From contig NZ_CP031747.1 of assembly GCF_005311025.1 (NCBI RefSeq), positions 3,881,870 to 3,945,869 on the forward strand: a stretch of 64,000 bases of DNA, in the 5' to 3' direction. The notes below the pieces were generated by a model. The model saw only the letters and a program-made list of their open reading frames with translations, made no database searches and had not been told where the DNA came from. Made by a program: the position numbers and the translations under genes. Below, in pieces: positions 10,912-60,060 of the stretch. The stretch is from Alcaligenes faecalis (GTDB lineage Bacteria; Pseudomonadota; Gammaproteobacteria; Burkholderiales; Burkholderiaceae_B). Numbering within the stretch: the stretch's first letter is position 1; each line of letters opens with the position of its first letter.

Positions 10912-11285
10912 GTTGTTGTACAACGAAAAAAGCCCCCACGCTGCGCCTTCGGCTTGCTGCCCCCCGAGGGGGAGGTTTTGCCTTGGGGCGGCCCGGCGAC
11001 AAAAAAAGCCCCCACGCTACACCTTCGGCTTGCTGCCCCTCCAAGGGGGAGCTTTCACCTTGGGACGGCCCGGCGGCAAAAAAGATCGAGATCGCCACTC
11101 TACCATCTCTGCCAGAATTTGCAGCCCCTGCCCCTACTGCGCCACAAACCGCAGCAAACTGTCCACATCCGGTATCAGGAGAAGCCAGCCTGTGCGTCTT
11201 ATACCAATCTATGGCATAAAGAGAGTTTCCTGATTACTAATTACCTGAGCGCCCGGTTTGTTCGGGGCTATGCACAACCAAGGCT
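10912..11285. other. Intergenic region between maoC-like gene and hydrolase
   Basis: 374 bases upstream of both divergent genes. It holds the two-copy repeat described separately and about 200 bases of AT-richer sequence ahead of the hydrolase. Reading frames across the repeat have no protein-family features and are taken as chance. Confidence 0.6.
10926..11077. repeat. Two tandem copies of a ~75-bp GC-rich intergenic repeat
   Basis: Copy 1 (10926-11000) and copy 2 (11001-11077) share an A-tract, AGCCCCCACGCT, CCTTCGGCTTGCTGCCCC, a GGGGGAG segment, CCTTGGG and CGGCCCGGCG; a third A-tract follows at 11078. Each copy can fold through its CCCC/GGGG arms. Similar elements recur between genes in Bordetella-, Achromobacter- and Comamonas-type genomes, from general knowledge. 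Copies differ by substitutions and short gaps, so the duplication is not recent. Confidence 0.8.
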
Positions 11286-44800: not shown

Positions 44801-46024
44801 TTAGGCAATCGCTCGGATCGGCAATACCCGGCTTTGCTCGTCCACACGGCGCTCTTCGGCGCGGTACAGATCAATCAGCCAGTTTTGCAAACGCTTGATG
44901 ACCAGCTCTTCATTGGTCAGACGGCCACGGGAAGCAAAGTTGGATTGCATGCCCTGATGCGAACGACGCCAGGCAAACAGGTCCTCGATCATCACGGGGT
45001 ACAGATCATCGTGTTCCTGATCGAACTTCTCTTTGTGGTCCTCGCGCTCCAACGTTTCCTGCGGGTACATCCAGGACACGCCATAGGTGGACTGCTTGGC
45101 GCTTTTGGGCAGCCACATGAAGTACTTCACCTTGTCGGGCATGGCCACCAGCAAGAGGTTGGGCGCTACCGTCACGTAGGAAAGCTGAGTTCGCTCCTGG
45201 TCAGTCAAACCCTTCATGGGCGGCTGCAAGATGGAGCCGGTATGCGTGGGGGCTGCGTCTTTGTGGGTGGAGATCAGGTTGTAGGAAACAATGCCGTTGG
45301 CCACGTCATTGAAGACTGCGGTTTCGTCCACACGATCCGGATTGGTTTCATACATGCCGCCCCAGGAGGAGGCGTGCAAAAAGCTGCAGTGATAGCACTC
45401 GTCATTGAAGATCTTCCAGTTCCAGTCGAAACTTTCCATCTTCAACGGTTCCGAGGACTTCAGCTCGGACATGCGGTAGTTCGCCAACTGCTTGCCCAGA
45501 TTACCCAAGCGGGTGTGCAAGGCAGGAGCCATGGCGTCGTAGTTGATGAAGATAAAGCCTTCCCAAACCTCGGCGCGGATCTTGGGCAGACAAACACTCT
45601 TGGGGTCAAAGCTGGCACCGGTATCGGTCAGACCTGGGGCGGAAACCAGCTCGCCCTCCATGTTGTAGACCCAGGCGTGCAAGGGGCAGCTGATGCGGCG
45701 TACATTGCCTGCACCTTCCAGCAACAACATATTGCGGTGACGACAGACATTGGACAGTACATTGATGCCACCTTCACGAGTGCGGATGGCAAACAGCGCA
45801 TCATTGCCTACATCGAAGGTGAAGAAGTCACCGGCGTTGGGGATGTCAGTGGCGCGGCCCACACAGAACCACTGCTTTTTCCAGACGGCATTCAGCTCAA
45901 ACTGGAAAAACTCTTCCGAGGTAAAGCACTCGGGGGGCAAGGCGAAAACCTCGTCGGTTTCCTGCTGAAAGTAGCTGCGGTCAAATTCTTCAATCGCAAT
46001 GGGCGAGCGTAGAGCGGTATTCAT
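44801..46024 (-). CDS. Rieske non-heme iron oxygenase, alpha subunit
   Basis: 407 residues. The Rieske centre is C94-x-H96 with C113-x2-H116, and the mononuclear iron site is NDECYHCSFLH (His212, His217, Asp208/Glu209 for electron transfer). The catalytic domain follows. Such enzymes hydroxylate aromatics or demethylate/hydroxylate N-compounds; the motif context (choline/betaine-type and phthalate-type members share it) does not fix the substrate. No beta-subunit gene is present. AGGAGA lies before the ATG at 46024. First gene of a six-gene operon ending at 39795. Confidence 0.92.
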   Translation of the reverse strand: MNTALRSPIAIEEFDRSYFQQETDEVFALPPECFTSEEFFQFELNAVWKKQWFCVGRATDIPNAGDFFTFDVGNDALFAIRTREGGINVLSNVCRHRNMLLLEGAGNVRRISCPLHAWVYNMEGELVSAPGLTDTGASFDPKSVCLPKIRAEVWEGFIFINYDAMAPALHTRLGNLGKQLANYRMSELKSSEPLKMESFDWNWKIFNDECYHCSFLHASSWGGMYETNPDRVDETAVFNDVANGIVSYNLISTHKDAAPTHTGSILQPPMKGLTDQERTQLSYVTVAPNLLLVAMPDKVKYFMWLPKSAKQSTYGVSWMYPQETLEREDHKEKFDQEHDDLYPVMIEDLFAWRRSHQGMQSNFASRGRLTNEELVIKRLQNWLIDLYRAEERRVDEQSRVLPIRAIA

Positions 46025-46213
46025 CTCAGTATCTCCTCTGGTTTGCATAAGCACCATGAATGGCTTTTATTAGGTCAGGCCAATCATGCGACAGGGAGCG
46101 ACACTTGAAAATTGAGCAAATTTGACGGAACGATGAGTTTTTTTTGTTGCTGAATATGGATAACGAGAAAGCGGTAGGTCGCAAGCACTGCAAAGTGTGG
46201 AAATTCGCAGCGT

Positions 46214-46231: not shown

Positions 46232-46350
46232 GCTGCGTGTCAGGTATTTGGCAAGCACGTATGAGCGGTGTGAAAACTATGCGGAGCTTGAGAAAGCCCC
46301 CAGTCACACGCGTCAGATCGGGGTTCCACACCCTGATCGCCGAGAAATGA

Positions 46351-46413
46351 GCGATGAGCGATGAGCGATGAGCGATGAGCGATGAGCGATGAGCGATGAG
46401 CGATGAGCGATGA
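46351..46413. repeat. Heptanucleotide microsatellite, nine copies
   Basis: Nine perfect GCGATGA units in tandem (63 bases), preceded by a partial ATGA. It lies outside genes, about 330 bases upstream of the oxygenase start and 150 bases beyond the LysR stop. Perfect copies suggest recent slippage and probable length variation between strains. Confidence 0.97.
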
Positions 46414-46445
46414 GCATCCAGCCTGGTTCGGGAAGGCCGATACAT

Positions 46446-46565: not shown

Positions 46566-47444
46566 CTAGCGTATTGCAATCGACGCCACCCAATCCACAA
46601 ACTCCTGCTCCTGTCGGCTAAGGTTTGCCTCCTTGGGGTAGGCCAGGAAATAGGCGTACTCTTCCAGGCACACATCGAACAGCTGGACGATTTCCTTCCT
46701 GTCGATCAAAGGCTTCAGCAAGGCCGGACAGCCCAGCATCACCCCTTGGCCATTCAAGACCGCATTCATGCGCACATTGGTGTCATCAATGTGAAAGCTC
46801 TTCTTGGCCGTCAGCTCCTGTCCTGCTGCCTTGCGTAACCACTGCTCCCAGCACAGCTGATTTTCTTCGTGAATCAGCACATGCTGGTTCAGATCCGCCG
46901 GGGAGGTGATCTGGCCATGCGCCTGCAAATAAGACGGTGCACACACTGGCGTCAAATTGCCGGGAATGATGCGCAAGGTCTGCAACTGCGGCCAGTCGCC
47001 CTGCTTGCCCCAGACAATTGCAAAATTGATGTTGTCCCTGAAAAAATCCGGTGCCTGCAACCTGTGCAGCAAGTTGATTTCAATATCCGGATGCTTCAGC
47101 CAGAAATCCCCCAGTTGCCCGGTAAACCACATGCTGGACACAAAGGGCCGCAAGGACAGATTGATGCGGCTCTTGCCGTGAGGCATGCGCAATTCACTCA
47201 AGGCCTGATTGATCTCGTAAAAAGGCCGTTGCAAACGGTCAAACAGAAACTGGCCCTGATCCGTCAGCTCCAGCGAACGGTTTTTACGCAAAAACAGCTT
47301 GCAGCCCAGATACTCCTCCAGCACCTTGATCTGGTGGCTGACTGCCGAGGGAGAGACCAGCAGGTCTTCTGCCGCCTTGGTGAAGTTCAACCTTTGCGCC
47401 GACACCGTAAAGGTTCTTAAGGCATTCAGTAATGGCACCTGCAT
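46566..47444 (-). CDS. LysR-family transcriptional regulator, GcvA-like
   Basis: 292 residues. HTH at about 5-65 (LLNALRTFTVSAQRLNFTKAAEDLLVSPSAVSHQIKVLE), then an effector domain. It is on the same strand as the oxygenase operon and 541 bases upstream of it, separated by a terminator; its own promoter lies in 47445-47560. Control of the oxygenase operon is the simplest inference. Confidence 0.87.
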   Translation of the reverse strand: MQVPLLNALRTFTVSAQRLNFTKAAEDLLVSPSAVSHQIKVLEEYLGCKLFLRKNRSLELTDQGQFLFDRLQRPFYEINQALSELRMPHGKSRINLSLRPFVSSMWFTGQLGDFWLKHPDIEINLLHRLQAPDFFRDNINFAIVWGKQGDWPQLQTLRIIPGNLTPVCAPSYLQAHGQITSPADLNQHVLIHEENQLCWEQWLRKAAGQELTAKKSFHIDDTNVRMNAVLNGQGVMLGCPALLKPLIDRKEIVQLFDVCLEEYAYFLAYPKEANLSRQEQEFVDWVASIAIR

Positions 47445-56767: not shown

Positions 56768-57706
56768 ATGGAATTTTTTCGTATTCACCGCACTATCCCG
56801 TTCATGCGCCATGCGTTGGTGCTGAACCTGATCAGTTTTCTGACATTTATTGCAGCGGTCGTCTTCATTATTGTGCGCGGCTTTCACCTGTCCATCGAAT
56901 TTACCGGTGGTACGGTCATGGAAGTGCACTATCAGCAAACCGTGCAGGTCGAAGATGTGCGCGGCTCGATTCAGTCGCTGGGCTATACCGATTTCCAGGT
57001 ACAGAACTTCGGCACGTCGCAGGACATCATGATCCGCTTGCCCGTTCTGGACGGACAAGACTCTACCCAGCAAAGCGAGCAAGTACTCCAGGCCTTGAAG
57101 CAGCAGCACTCGGACGTGGAGCTGCGCCGTGTGGAGTTCGTCGGCCCACAGGTGGGGCAAGAACTGCTGCATAACGGTTTGATGGCCCTGGCCTTTGTGG
57201 TCGCCGGTATCTTGCTGTACCTGGGCTTCCGCTTTGAGTGGAAGCTGGCGCTGGCTTGTGCGATTGCCAACTTGCACGACGTGGTCATCATTCTGGGCTT
57301 TTTCGCGTTCTTCCAATGGGAGTTCTCGCTGTCGGTGCTGGCCGGTGTCCTGGCGGTGCTGGGTTACTCCGTGAACGAATCCGTTGTGGTGATGGACCGT
57401 ATCCGTGAAAACTTCCGCAAGCAGCGCAAGATGTCGGTTTCGGACATTATTGATCTGTCCATCACCCAGAACATCTCGCGTACCATCATCACCCACGGTT
57501 CTACCCAGATGATGGTGCTGTCGATTTTCTTCTTCGGTGGCCCAACGCTGCACAACTTCTCGCTGGCGCTGACCATCGGTATCTGGTTCGGTATTTACTC
57601 CTCCGTGTTCGTGGCCGCCGCCATTTCCATGTGGCTGGGCGTGAAACGTGAGGATCTGGTCAAGCCGATCAAGAAAGACGAAGGCGGCGAGGTTGTAGAA
57701 GGCTAA
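56768..57706 (+). CDS. secF: Protein translocase subunit SecF
   Basis: 312 residues with six transmembrane helices. HLSIEFTGGTVMEV follows the first helix; GYSVNESVVVMDRIRENFRK lies in the second half. It partners SecD. A strong terminator (57734) ends the tgt-yajC-secDF operon. Confidence 0.97.
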   Translation: MEFFRIHRTIPFMRHALVLNLISFLTFIAAVVFIIVRGFHLSIEFTGGTVMEVHYQQTVQVEDVRGSIQSLGYTDFQVQNFGTSQDIMIRLPVLDGQDSTQQSEQVLQALKQQHSDVELRRVEFVGPQVGQELLHNGLMALAFVVAGILLYLGFRFEWKLALACAIANLHDVVIILGFFAFFQWEFSLSVLAGVLAVLGYSVNESVVVMDRIRENFRKQRKMSVSDIIDLSITQNISRTIITHGSTQMMVLSIFFFGGPTLHNFSLALTIGIWFGIYSSVFVAAAISMWLGVKREDLVKPIKKDEGGEVVEG

Positions 57707-57733
57707 GTTGCTTCTTGGCTCGCTGTTATAACG

Positions 57734-57769
57734 AAAAGCCCGACATTAAAACAATGTCGGGCTTTTTTT
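57734..57769 (+). terminator. Terminator after secF
   Basis: Perfect 14-bp stem (57734-57747 with 57753-57766), 5-base loop, seven T. Confidence 0.96.
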
Positions 57770-57888
57770 GTTTCTAGGGCTGCTGGATTACGAGTAATAG
57801 AGTGGCGGCAGTAAGCCTCTTTTTGTTTTATTGAGGGCCGGAGCAGGTCGGCGGGCGAGTCAGGTTATTCGCCGCGGGCAGAGGCCGG

Positions 57889-60060
57889 ATGCGGGGTGCA
57901 AGGGTCGTGCTGTTTGAGGAGCACGCTTGCGGTTTGTCCGGGGGACAAACCGCGCTCCGAGTTTTCAACCGTGACCGCGACAGCCGTCCGCAATCGGGTG
58001 AACGTCGTGAATTCTCCGGTGAGCGCCGCGAACGTCCAGCATTCAACCGTGACCGCGACAGCCGTCCACAATCGGGCGAACGTCGTGAGTTCTCCGGCGA
58101 GCGCCGCGAACGTCCTGCATTCAACCGTGACCGTGACAGCCGTCCCCAATCGGGCGAACGTCGTGAATTCTCCGGCGAGCGTCGTGAACGCCCCGCATTC
58201 AACCGTGATCGTGACAGCCGCCCTCAATCGGGCGAACGTCGCGAATTCTCCGGTGAGCGTCGTGAGCGTCCCGCATTCAACCGTGACCGAGACAGCCGTC
58301 CGCAATCGGGCGAACGTCGCGAATTCTCCGGCGAGCGCCGCGAACGTCCTGCATTCAACCGTGACCGTGACAGCCGTCCGCAATCGGGCGAACGTCGTGA
58401 ATTCTCCGGTGAGCGTCGTGAACGTCCTGCATTCAACCGTGACCGAGACAGCCGTCCGCAATCGGGCGAACGTCGTGAATTCTCCGGCGAACGCCGTGAG
58501 CGTCCCGCATTCAACCGTGACCGTGACAGCCGTCCGCAATCGGGCGAACGTCGTGAGTTCTCCGGTGAGCGTCGTGAACGCCCTGCATTCAATCGTGACC
58601 GCGACAGCCGCCCTCAAACGGGCGAGCGCCGCAATTTCTCGGGTGAACGCCGCGAGCGTCCAGCCTTCAAGGGCGACAAGGAATCTTCGGAGCGTACCCC
58701 TGCCGGCAAAATGCCCAGCAAGCTGTTTAGCCCGGCCGGTGACTCCGATGCCTTTCCTCAATATGTCTCGCCTATTCAGCGTGTAGACAGCCCCCAGGCC
58801 CCCAAGCCCGGTCAGCGCCTGCCCGATAGCAATATCGAGCAAAACGAGCGCGTCCAGGTCAAGGCTCTGCAAGGGGAACGCTACCGTCTGTTTGCTCCCT
58901 GCCCACAAGGGCTGGAAGAAGCGCTGTCGCTGGAACTGCAAGCACTAGGCTACGAGAACGTTCAAACCGGCCGTGCGGGCTGCCATTTTGATGCGGACTG
59001 GATCGGTGTCATGCGTGCCAACCTGTCCTCGCGACTGGCGACACGCATTTTGCTGGAAGTCTCGCACGCTCCTGTCACCAACGAAGAGGACATTCTGGCC
59101 CTGGCTCGGGTGACTCCCTGGGAACGCTGGTTTGGCCCCGAGCAGACACTGCGTGTCGACACCTCGGCCGTACGCAGCCCCATGCAAAGCTTGCAGTACT
59201 GCAATCTGCGCGCCAAAGACGGGATTTGTGACCGCCTGCGTGATCTGGAAGGCGCACGTCCTTCCATCGATACCGTACGCCCGGATGCCAAGGTGCATTT
59301 GTTCCTGGACGAGACCAGTGCCACCTTCTACCTGGATACCAGTGGCGAGTCCCTGTTCAAGCGTGGCTGGCGTCACGACAAGGGCGATGCGCCTTTGCGT
59401 GAAAACCTGGCAGCGGGCCTGCTGGCCCTGTCTGGCTGGGACCCCAGCAAGCCTTTGATCGACCCCTTCTGCGGTAGTGGCACAATTCTGATCGAAGCCG
59501 CCTGGATGGCTTTGGGAGCGCCTCCCGGCATCTGGCGCCCCTTCCACTTCGAGCGTCTGCGCTGCCACGACCAGCGCTTGTGGCGTGACATCAAGGACGA
59601 AGCGCGCTCCATGATCGCTCCTCGTCTGGATACTCCATTGATTGGCTACGACATCAACCCCACCGTTCTGGATGCAGCCCGTTCCAACCTGGAACGCTCG
59701 CACCTGACGCTGGAGACGATTCGCTTCGAGCAAGGCGATGCCCTGAAGATTCGTCCAGAAACGGAAGCCGGCTGGATTGTCACCAATCCTCCTTACGGCG
59801 AGCGCCTGGAACATCAGGACGAGGACTTCTGGCCAAACTGGGCCAGCAACCTCAAGCAAAACTTCGCCAACTGGAGCGTGAACATGATCAGCAGCGACCT
59901 GGAGCTGCCACGTCATATGCGCCTCAAGCCCAAGCGTCGTTACCCGCTGTACAACGGTGCTCTGGATTGCCGTCTGTTCTGCTTTGACATGGTTCCGGCC
60001 AGTTATCGCAATAACGAGACAGCCTCGGACGCCAGCGAAGACTCAGCCAGCGCCGAATAA
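57889..60060 (+). CDS. Class I SAM-dependent RNA methyltransferase (RlmL/THUMP type) with repeat extension
   Basis: 723 residues. Residues 26-259 are nine 26-residue Arg/Glu-rich repeats; 260-329 is a Pro-rich linker; from about 330 a THUMP domain (LFAPCPQGLEEALSLELQALGYENV) and then a UPF0020-type methyltransferase with DPFCGSGTILIEAAW for SAM and the catalytic TNPPYGERL. It would methylate guanine N2 in 23S rRNA like RlmL; the exact base is unknown. The start is uncertain: ATG 57889 has AGAGG upstream but its first 25 residues look unlike the family, and GTG 57907 or TTG 57934 are alternatives. The folded part is certain. Confidence 0.85.
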   Translation: MRGARVVLFEEHACGLSGGQTALRVFNRDRDSRPQSGERREFSGERRERPAFNRDRDSRPQSGERREFSGERRERPAFNRDRDSRPQSGERREFSGERRERPAFNRDRDSRPQSGERREFSGERRERPAFNRDRDSRPQSGERREFSGERRERPAFNRDRDSRPQSGERREFSGERRERPAFNRDRDSRPQSGERREFSGERRERPAFNRDRDSRPQSGERREFSGERRERPAFNRDRDSRPQTGERRNFSGERRERPAFKGDKESSERTPAGKMPSKLFSPAGDSDAFPQYVSPIQRVDSPQAPKPGQRLPDSNIEQNERVQVKALQGERYRLFAPCPQGLEEALSLELQALGYENVQTGRAGCHFDADWIGVMRANLSSRLATRILLEVSHAPVTNEEDILALARVTPWERWFGPEQTLRVDTSAVRSPMQSLQYCNLRAKDGICDRLRDLEGARPSIDTVRPDAKVHLFLDETSATFYLDTSGESLFKRGWRHDKGDAPLRENLAAGLLALSGWDPSKPLIDPFCGSGTILIEAAWMALGAPPGIWRPFHFERLRCHDQRLWRDIKDEARSMIAPRLDTPLIGYDINPTVLDAARSNLERSHLTLETIRFEQGDALKIRPETEAGWIVTNPPYGERLEHQDEDFWPNWASNLKQNFANWSVNMISSDLELPRHMRLKPKRRYPLYNGALDCRLFCFDMVPASYRNNETASDASEDSASAE
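57918..57958. promoter_or_regulatory. Hairpin just inside the start of the repeat-bearing methyltransferase gene
   Basis: An 11-bp perfect stem (57929-57939 with 57943-57953), GGG loop, plus an outer 5-bp pair (57918-57922 with 57954-57958) across a 6-base bulge. It lies between the chosen ATG and the repeat array, so it could control translation or mean that the true start is downstream. Confidence 0.5.
57964..58665 (+). repeat. Nine tandem 78-bp coding repeats
   Basis: Period exactly 78 bases (26 codons): each unit encodes FNRDRDSRPQSGERREFSG followed by ERRERPA, with an internal near-repeat GERRE. Units 1-8 encode the same peptide; unit 9 has S11T and E16N. Units 1-8 differ from one another only at third codon positions (for example CGC/CGT/CGA, CCG/CCA/CCC/CCT). 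Confidence 0.98.

Follow-up and report, generated by a model that had tools for sequence, protein, structure and literature searches.

An arginine-rich tandem-repeat array under purifying selection in the N-terminal extension of an RlmL-like methyltransferase of Alcaligenes, interrupted by a probable assembly join

The gene for an RlmL-like rRNA methyltransferase in Alcaligenes carries, ahead of its catalytic core, a tandem array that varies in the way expected of coding sequence whose protein product is held by purifying selection; protein constraint and concerted turnover work jointly in this array, as in polyubiquitin genes. Our preferred reading, which we rate at somewhat better than even, is that the array is the middle of a probably disordered Arg/Asp/Glu-rich N-terminal tail that would serve as a multivalent RNA-binding tether on RlmL. 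The window, meaning the whole 64,000-nucleotide stretch of DNA analysed, very probably holds only a 3′ piece of the gene, and its relevant features are as follows (C1 is a contig of the assembly that contains the window).

56768..57706, plus strand: secF, an unrelated left neighbour, very probably brought in by a misjoin
57889..57963, plus strand: spurious 5′ end of the open reading frame, MRGARVVLFEEHACGLSGGQTALRV, a read-through of an intergenic repeat and outside the gene
57896..57963, no strand given: 68-bp piece with an exact copy at C1:1612305-1612372 and 67 bp at C1:4194033-4194099 (minus); probable misjoin at 57963/57964
57964..58665, plus strand: nine 78-bp units of 26 amino acids each, in frame with the methyltransferase (TRF and translation)
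58666..58866, plus strand: non-repeat linker from array to core, conserved across the genus (omega against relatives)
58867..60060, plus strand: RlmL-like catalytic part, stop at 60058-60060 (Pfam, NCBIfam, phmmer)
about 58888-59052, plus strand: RlmL ferredoxin-like domain (Pfam)
about 59077-59337, plus strand: THUMP domain (Pfam)
about 59362-59973, plus strand: UPF0020 methyltransferase domain with the NPPYGE motif (Pfam)

The three domains of the core score 66.4, 54.1 and 163.6 bits in Pfam (RlmL ferredoxin-like, THUMP and UPF0020, respectively), each above its cut-off. NPPY-type motifs are catalytic, and NPPYG is invariant in all 24 aligned proteins. The same domain set is present in the RlmL half of E. 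coli RlmKL, which phmmer matches to the core with E 1.4e-60 for 3v97 and about 1e-60 for both 3v97 and 3v8v. However, the window protein lacks the C-terminal RlmK half: the NCBIfam RlmKL equivalog model gives 335.8 bits against a cut-off of 466 and is covered only at positions 3-390 of 704, which is the RlmL half, and we therefore set aside a fused RlmKL identity. Judged by sequence, the enzyme is a stand-alone RlmL-like methyltransferase, and by homology to E. coli RlmL it would methylate G2445. It also differs from the E. coli enzyme in that the Alcaligenes protein does not start at the ferredoxin-like domain; a long Arg-rich repeat tail precedes it.

Within the window, TRF reports a period of 78 bp and 9.1 copies at 57964-58670. 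The earlier note on this DNA had described units 1-8 as one exact 26-residue peptide whose coding DNA differs at third positions only, and this description is correct. Each of units 1-8 encodes FNRDRDSRPQSGERREFSGERRERPA; their DNA differs at 14 of the 78 positions, all 14 of them at codon position 3 and synonymous, through at least 18 substitutions in total. The probability of 14 exclusively synonymous sites without selection is ~3e-9 to 8e-8 for kappa 1-8, a calculation that treats the sites as independent. Copy 9 is divergent, with S to T and E to N relative to copies 1-8, and this divergent final unit (QTGERRNF) is also terminal in five of the seven other uninterrupted arrays of the genus and in G009, and not in G001 or G004 (genomes are given by handles, G000 being the assembly that contains the window). 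Long antisense and +1-frame open reading frames overlap the array, and we reject these as genes: any frame in which a 78-bp unit has no stop stays open through all copies, and it is in the frame of the methyltransferase that copies 1-8 vary synonymously.

We obtained omega from Nei-Gojobori counts among equal-length units that were found by regular expressions (a loose one for Alcaligenes) and compared within each genome's array. The Alcaligenes values leave out length variants (one 33-residue unit in G006, the 33- and 19-residue units in G003, one unit of 24 residues in G007, and the final units of G002 and G008) as well as pieces of 10 and 15 residues in G008. Omega is low, 0.011-0.108, in all nine Alcaligenes genomes measured: 0.011 in G001, 0.019 in G000 and G008, 0.051 in G002, 0.058 in G004, 0.060 in G007, 0.073 in G006, 0.097 in G009 (four 3′ units only, owing to a run of N) and 0.108 in G003; G005, where the contig ends in the array, gave no value. 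These figures are near those of the folded core (0.006-0.073 for G000 against eight relatives) and mostly below those of the N-terminal flank (0.094-0.481 in seven comparisons with G000, from few changes), while for the linker seven out of eight comparisons of G000 with relatives yield 0.056-0.086, one being not computable. Within arrays, dS is 0.32-0.89 against a dN of 0.004-0.062. The nine G000 copies, copy 9 included, have a dS of 0.61, greater than the 0.144 between the cores of G000 and G006, and copies 1-8 differ pairwise at 2 to 11 of 78 sites; the array is thus not a fresh amplification, as the earlier note had already concluded. Its further claim, that the peptide itself is constrained, stands in part. 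A comparison of repeat number and omega across the genus, akin to the one among strains that it had proposed, bears out the constraint, but the exact peptide varies: ten residue columns are variable among the 26-residue units of G007 and eight among those of G003, units differ between species, and A. endophyticus and other lineages have wholly different unit sequences. This suggests that what is retained in the long term is a composition and a pattern more than any single peptide sequence.

The arrays also turn over. Uninterrupted arrays of the genus have 9 to 17 copies, with G008 a mixture of units and shorter pieces, and their longest exact internal repeat is 56-176 bp, more than in any of 100 codon-shuffled arrays in six of seven genomes; G000 is the exception, at 56 against a shuffled maximum of 60. 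In four of the seven genomes this repeat lies at a three-unit offset. Such long exact repeats point to recombination within the array, and the copies are thus not independent. Selection for synonymous divergence as a means of stabilising the array is unsupported, because exact repeats exceed the codon-shuffled mean in all seven genomes (the shuffled mean pair difference for G003, distorted by unit-length variants, was not used). Polyubiquitin genes offer a comparison for protein constraint and turnover acting together. Their units are folded and are cleaved apart, whereas the Alcaligenes tail has a disorder-like composition and is not known to be cleaved. The likeness lies in head-to-tail units that are alike in protein, carry synonymous differences and evolve in concert (PMC10457151).

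Outside Alcaligenes, tails on RlmL are common in the family. Of the 26 other family genomes that were read, 24 extend RlmL at its N-terminus by 50 residues or more, and the extension contains a G.RA motif in 23; the exceptions for length are G015, a 0.8-Mb genome, and the divergent G020. Among 14 order genomes read outside the family, the motif is found in none and two pass the 50-residue rule, neither with a tail-like frame (in G045 the first Met is at the core; in G047 the frame is Cys/Pro-rich). Across 48 named loci, the extension is 50 residues or longer in 45 and the motif occurs in 43, a count that includes L114, on G009's contig, whose frame is wrong owing to a run of N. The upstream DNA of 20 further genomes was read; these were picked for long open frames from a 140-genome order sample and so are not a random sample. 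In four of them (G104; G074, G119 and G160), from two further families, the tail is clearly Arg-rich or basic, and outside the family G090 may be a fifth case. Repeat finding on 13 chosen extensions gave unrelated tandem units: DRPRFNREGG-like in G104, of 34 residues in G074, 13 in Bordetella genomosp. 1 and 31 in G019; an uncultured relative has PDSR, and the extension of G119 gave no units. A pair of 41-residue units can be read in the sequence of A. endophyticus. Similar composition recurs among unrelated tandem units, in figures that leave out Bordetella genomosp. 1, and two such lineages (G104, G074) lie outside the family. Omega is 0.052 in the G104 array, 0.104 in that of G074 (4 of 6 units) and a near-neutral 0.77 in that of Bordetella genomosp. 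1 (11 units), all three biased downward by unit expressions that fix many residues. The last value is high despite this bias; low values are thus not imposed by the method, and constraint on such arrays is not universal. As a separate observation, the unrelated repeat tail of G104 (L162) opens with GPRARK, like the GARAR motif of the family, and a short common N-terminal motif may therefore predate the arrays.

What might such a tail do? The window array is 31% Arg, 53% charged, 8% aromatic and 4% A/V/I/L/M; each unit has 8% Gly, 23% acidic residues and two Phe per 26 residues. This Arg-rich, charged composition with few A/V/I/L/M speaks for disorder and RNA contact, and the earlier note's suggestion of RNA, ribosome or condensate binding is plausible. 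Even a catalytically dead RlmL domain supports 50S assembly in E. coli, and an activity that unwinds helix 74 has been reported for RlmKL (PMC11194073 for both); Arg is enriched in low-complexity regions of prokaryote nucleic-acid-binding proteins (PMC6821194). From these reports and the composition we infer a multivalent tether and rRNA chaperone. Specifically, the tail would bind RNA with low specificity, its Arg residues contacting the phosphate backbone and bases and Phe/Arg pairs possibly adding cohesion; it would keep the enzyme on the pre-50S particle for longer and may help open or chaperone the rRNA helix due for methylation, and repeat number would set valency and tolerate drift. The tail carries little net positive charge (+0.08 per residue), so a tether working through electrostatics alone is less convincing. 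The synonymous-only pattern of copies 1-8, low omega in nine of nine genomes, the extension in most family genomes read and the recurring composition together make the tether, in our judgement, a little more probable than its negation. Against it count the 14 RlmL proteins first read outside the family, which presumably work without such a tail, and the array of Bordetella genomosp. 1, which evolves almost neutrally.

The same variability feeds a second reading, in which recombination expands a low-complexity tail that is tolerated without any gained function, changes being purged only when harmful, so that it stays open, soluble and non-toxic. The range of 9 to 17 units, the replacement of units between species, the excess of exact internal repeats over all 100 shuffled arrays in six of seven genomes, the near-neutral Bordetella genomosp. 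1 array and the lack of a tail in the 0.8-Mb relative all fit this reading. However, an omega of 0.011-0.019 in G001, G000 and G008 is strong for mere tolerance, a tail occurs in 24 of 26 other family genomes read, and its composition recurs in unrelated units. We consider tolerated expansion unlikely, while giving it real weight.

Arg-rich disordered tails on RNA enzymes are already well known, and the nearest likeness in design to the proposed tether is the GAR domain of eukaryotic fibrillarin. Fibrillarin belongs to a different methyltransferase family and uses different chemistry, and we draw an analogy of design and not of descent; no homology is claimed. A Pfam scan (E 0.001) of the window protein finds RlmL-type domains and no fibrillarin, so it is not a fibrillarin-like GAR protein. 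Fibrillarin likewise methylates rRNA and has an Arg-rich low-complexity domain at its N-terminus (PMC11599257), Gly/Arg-rich in composition, whereas the Alcaligenes unit is Arg-rich with little Gly and many acidic residues. Another composition-like match, to the disordered C-terminal tail of DeaD-type helicases (Pfam DeaD_C; residues 245-274 of the open reading frame), is weak: its 20.5 bits are below the curated cut-off of 23.3, and DeaD_C belongs to another protein and the opposite end, so we reject it as an identity. A bolder extension of the tether, which we regard as improbable, is that Burkholderiales RlmL repeatedly evolved a fibrillarin-like Arg-rich tail, that is, a selected disordered array of tunable valency that brings the enzyme together with 50S precursors as they form, perhaps in small condensates of ribosome assembly, with repeat number as the evolutionary dial.

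A different function would follow from the domain that is missing: the tail might compensate for the RlmK half absent relative to the fused E. coli enzyme. PF10672 (RlmK/RlmI-like), which does not discriminate RlmK from RlmI, is over its cut-off in one of 41 family genomes compared with 16 of 21 order genomes outside the family, and a tail-like extension is found in none of the 14 of those 21 that were read. In the order sample as a whole, 92 of 140 genomes have PF10672 over cut-off. However, all four genomes with clear tails outside the family (G104, G074, G119, G160) have PF10672, the possible fifth, G090, being without it, and it is also missing from G042, G044 and G050, which were read as having no tail; in addition, the family is one clade, and the contrast may thus reflect a single event. 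Replacement of RlmK by a tail is rejected as a general rule, and even as a local explanation we find compensation improbable. On its own account, the lack of any PF10672 match over cut-off in 40 of the 41 family genomes, G000 among them, means that m7G2069 may be missing in this family or made by another enzyme.

Recent gene conversion alone could in principle have newly homogenised the array and so given every unit the same peptide. Exact duplications spanning multiple units agree with this, as does the nearest neighbour of each copy, which is a copy of the same genome in nine of nine cases in both G001 and G004, but in only six of nine in G000 and eight of 16 in G007. Homogenisation alone cannot spare synonymous differences, and yet the arrays combine high dS with a dN of at most 0.062, the G000 copies have diverged beyond the G000-G006 core distance, and copies 1-8 differ only synonymously. 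We therefore think this very improbable as a sole cause, and retain protein constraint acting together with turnover.

The earlier note had placed the array at the N-terminus and taken nine as its copy number; neither survives comparison with the genus. The stretch upstream of the array, 57707-57963, is the secF terminator followed by a dispersed repeat, and the ATG at 57889 is rejected as a gene start because the first 25 codons are intergenic repeat downstream of secF. The N-terminal part of the gene lies elsewhere in G000, at C1:475-2 on the minus strand, where MSDQSERKTLSLNPGTKKKASNAEPRVRSGARARAASLQQDRQGGPKRETRPYVEKRDQDRRERPA is followed by three further units (one of 26 residues and two of 33) that run off the contig end. 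A search of G000 with the unit peptide revealed no other array; its nine matches are the two pieces of the gene (the window and C1:2-298, minus) and one weak match, E 0.57. Start, array and core are continuous in seven of nine genus relatives (G001, G002, G003, G004, G006, G007 and G008); in G009 (A. pakistanensis, L048) a run of N lies inside the array, and in G005 (A. endophyticus, L050) the contig ends there. The six kb upstream of the gene in G006 and G007 match C1:32-6000 of G000, which carries what we take to be leuS-, holA- and proA-like genes. After secF, the sequence of G001, G002 and G006 continues into the region placed at C1:1612305 onward in G000, and in G007 the region equivalent to C1:1612429 onward lies closely behind secF.

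The breakpoints have a repeat in common. The 68-bp piece next to the join belongs to a dispersed REP-like intergenic element (57823-57963) with matches in nine of ten genus genomes, 9 to 48 in each and 33 in G000. At C1:1612305 the element adjoins a coding-like stretch, hydrolase-like by eye, that ends abruptly; at C1:4194033 it adjoins a repeat gene of the type found scrambled, inverted pieces included, up to the contig end. At that right end (L041, C1:4198140-4204139) the repeat gene, which we assume to be Ig-like, is broken into direct and inverted pieces, as expected from failed repeat assembly. A single biological inversion does not account for the full set of breakpoints at the 67-68 bp element. 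The join at 57963/57964 is thus very probably an assembly error, in which the gene was broken inside the array and its 3′ piece attached to the secF terminator, and the gene start and repeat number read in the window are very probably assembly products, nine not being the true copy number. That the junction is instead a true rearrangement giving this strain an RlmL with a new N-terminus is extremely improbable: the frame created by the join does stay open from the ATG at 57889, but the N-terminal half sits at the very end of a contig whose opposite end is the scrambled, presumably Ig-like repeat gene, 67-68 bp are common to three breakpoints, one beside the abruptly ending stretch and one within the repeat gene, and the array is also broken or gapped in G005 and G009.

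Such arrays break assemblies, and the 'N-terminus' noted earlier serves as a warning, being an assembly join. The case described here is a recombining tandem array of low omega carried by a bacterial enzyme that methylates rRNA, and other lineages of this enzyme have arrays of their own with a similar composition. Among the matches listed in the open-licence literature (titles and abstract starts) there is no report of a repeat tail on RlmL or of Alcaligenes RlmL, and the accessible part of PMC7056703 contains nothing on the tail. The RlmL arrays, from zero to 17 units, form a natural series for testing the roles of such tails in rRNA modification and 50S assembly.

Two other repeats were seen in the window. 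TRF finds a 77-bp tandem repeat at 10926-11083 (2.1 copies, 89% match) and a perfect ATGAGCG heptamer repeat of 9.9 copies at 46347-46415. The heptamer repeat, a candidate phase-variable repeat, lies between genes at 46566-47444 (minus) and 44801-46057 (minus), which we take to encode a LysR-type regulator and a Rieske dioxygenase-like protein, respectively, and is ~290 bp upstream of the start of the latter.
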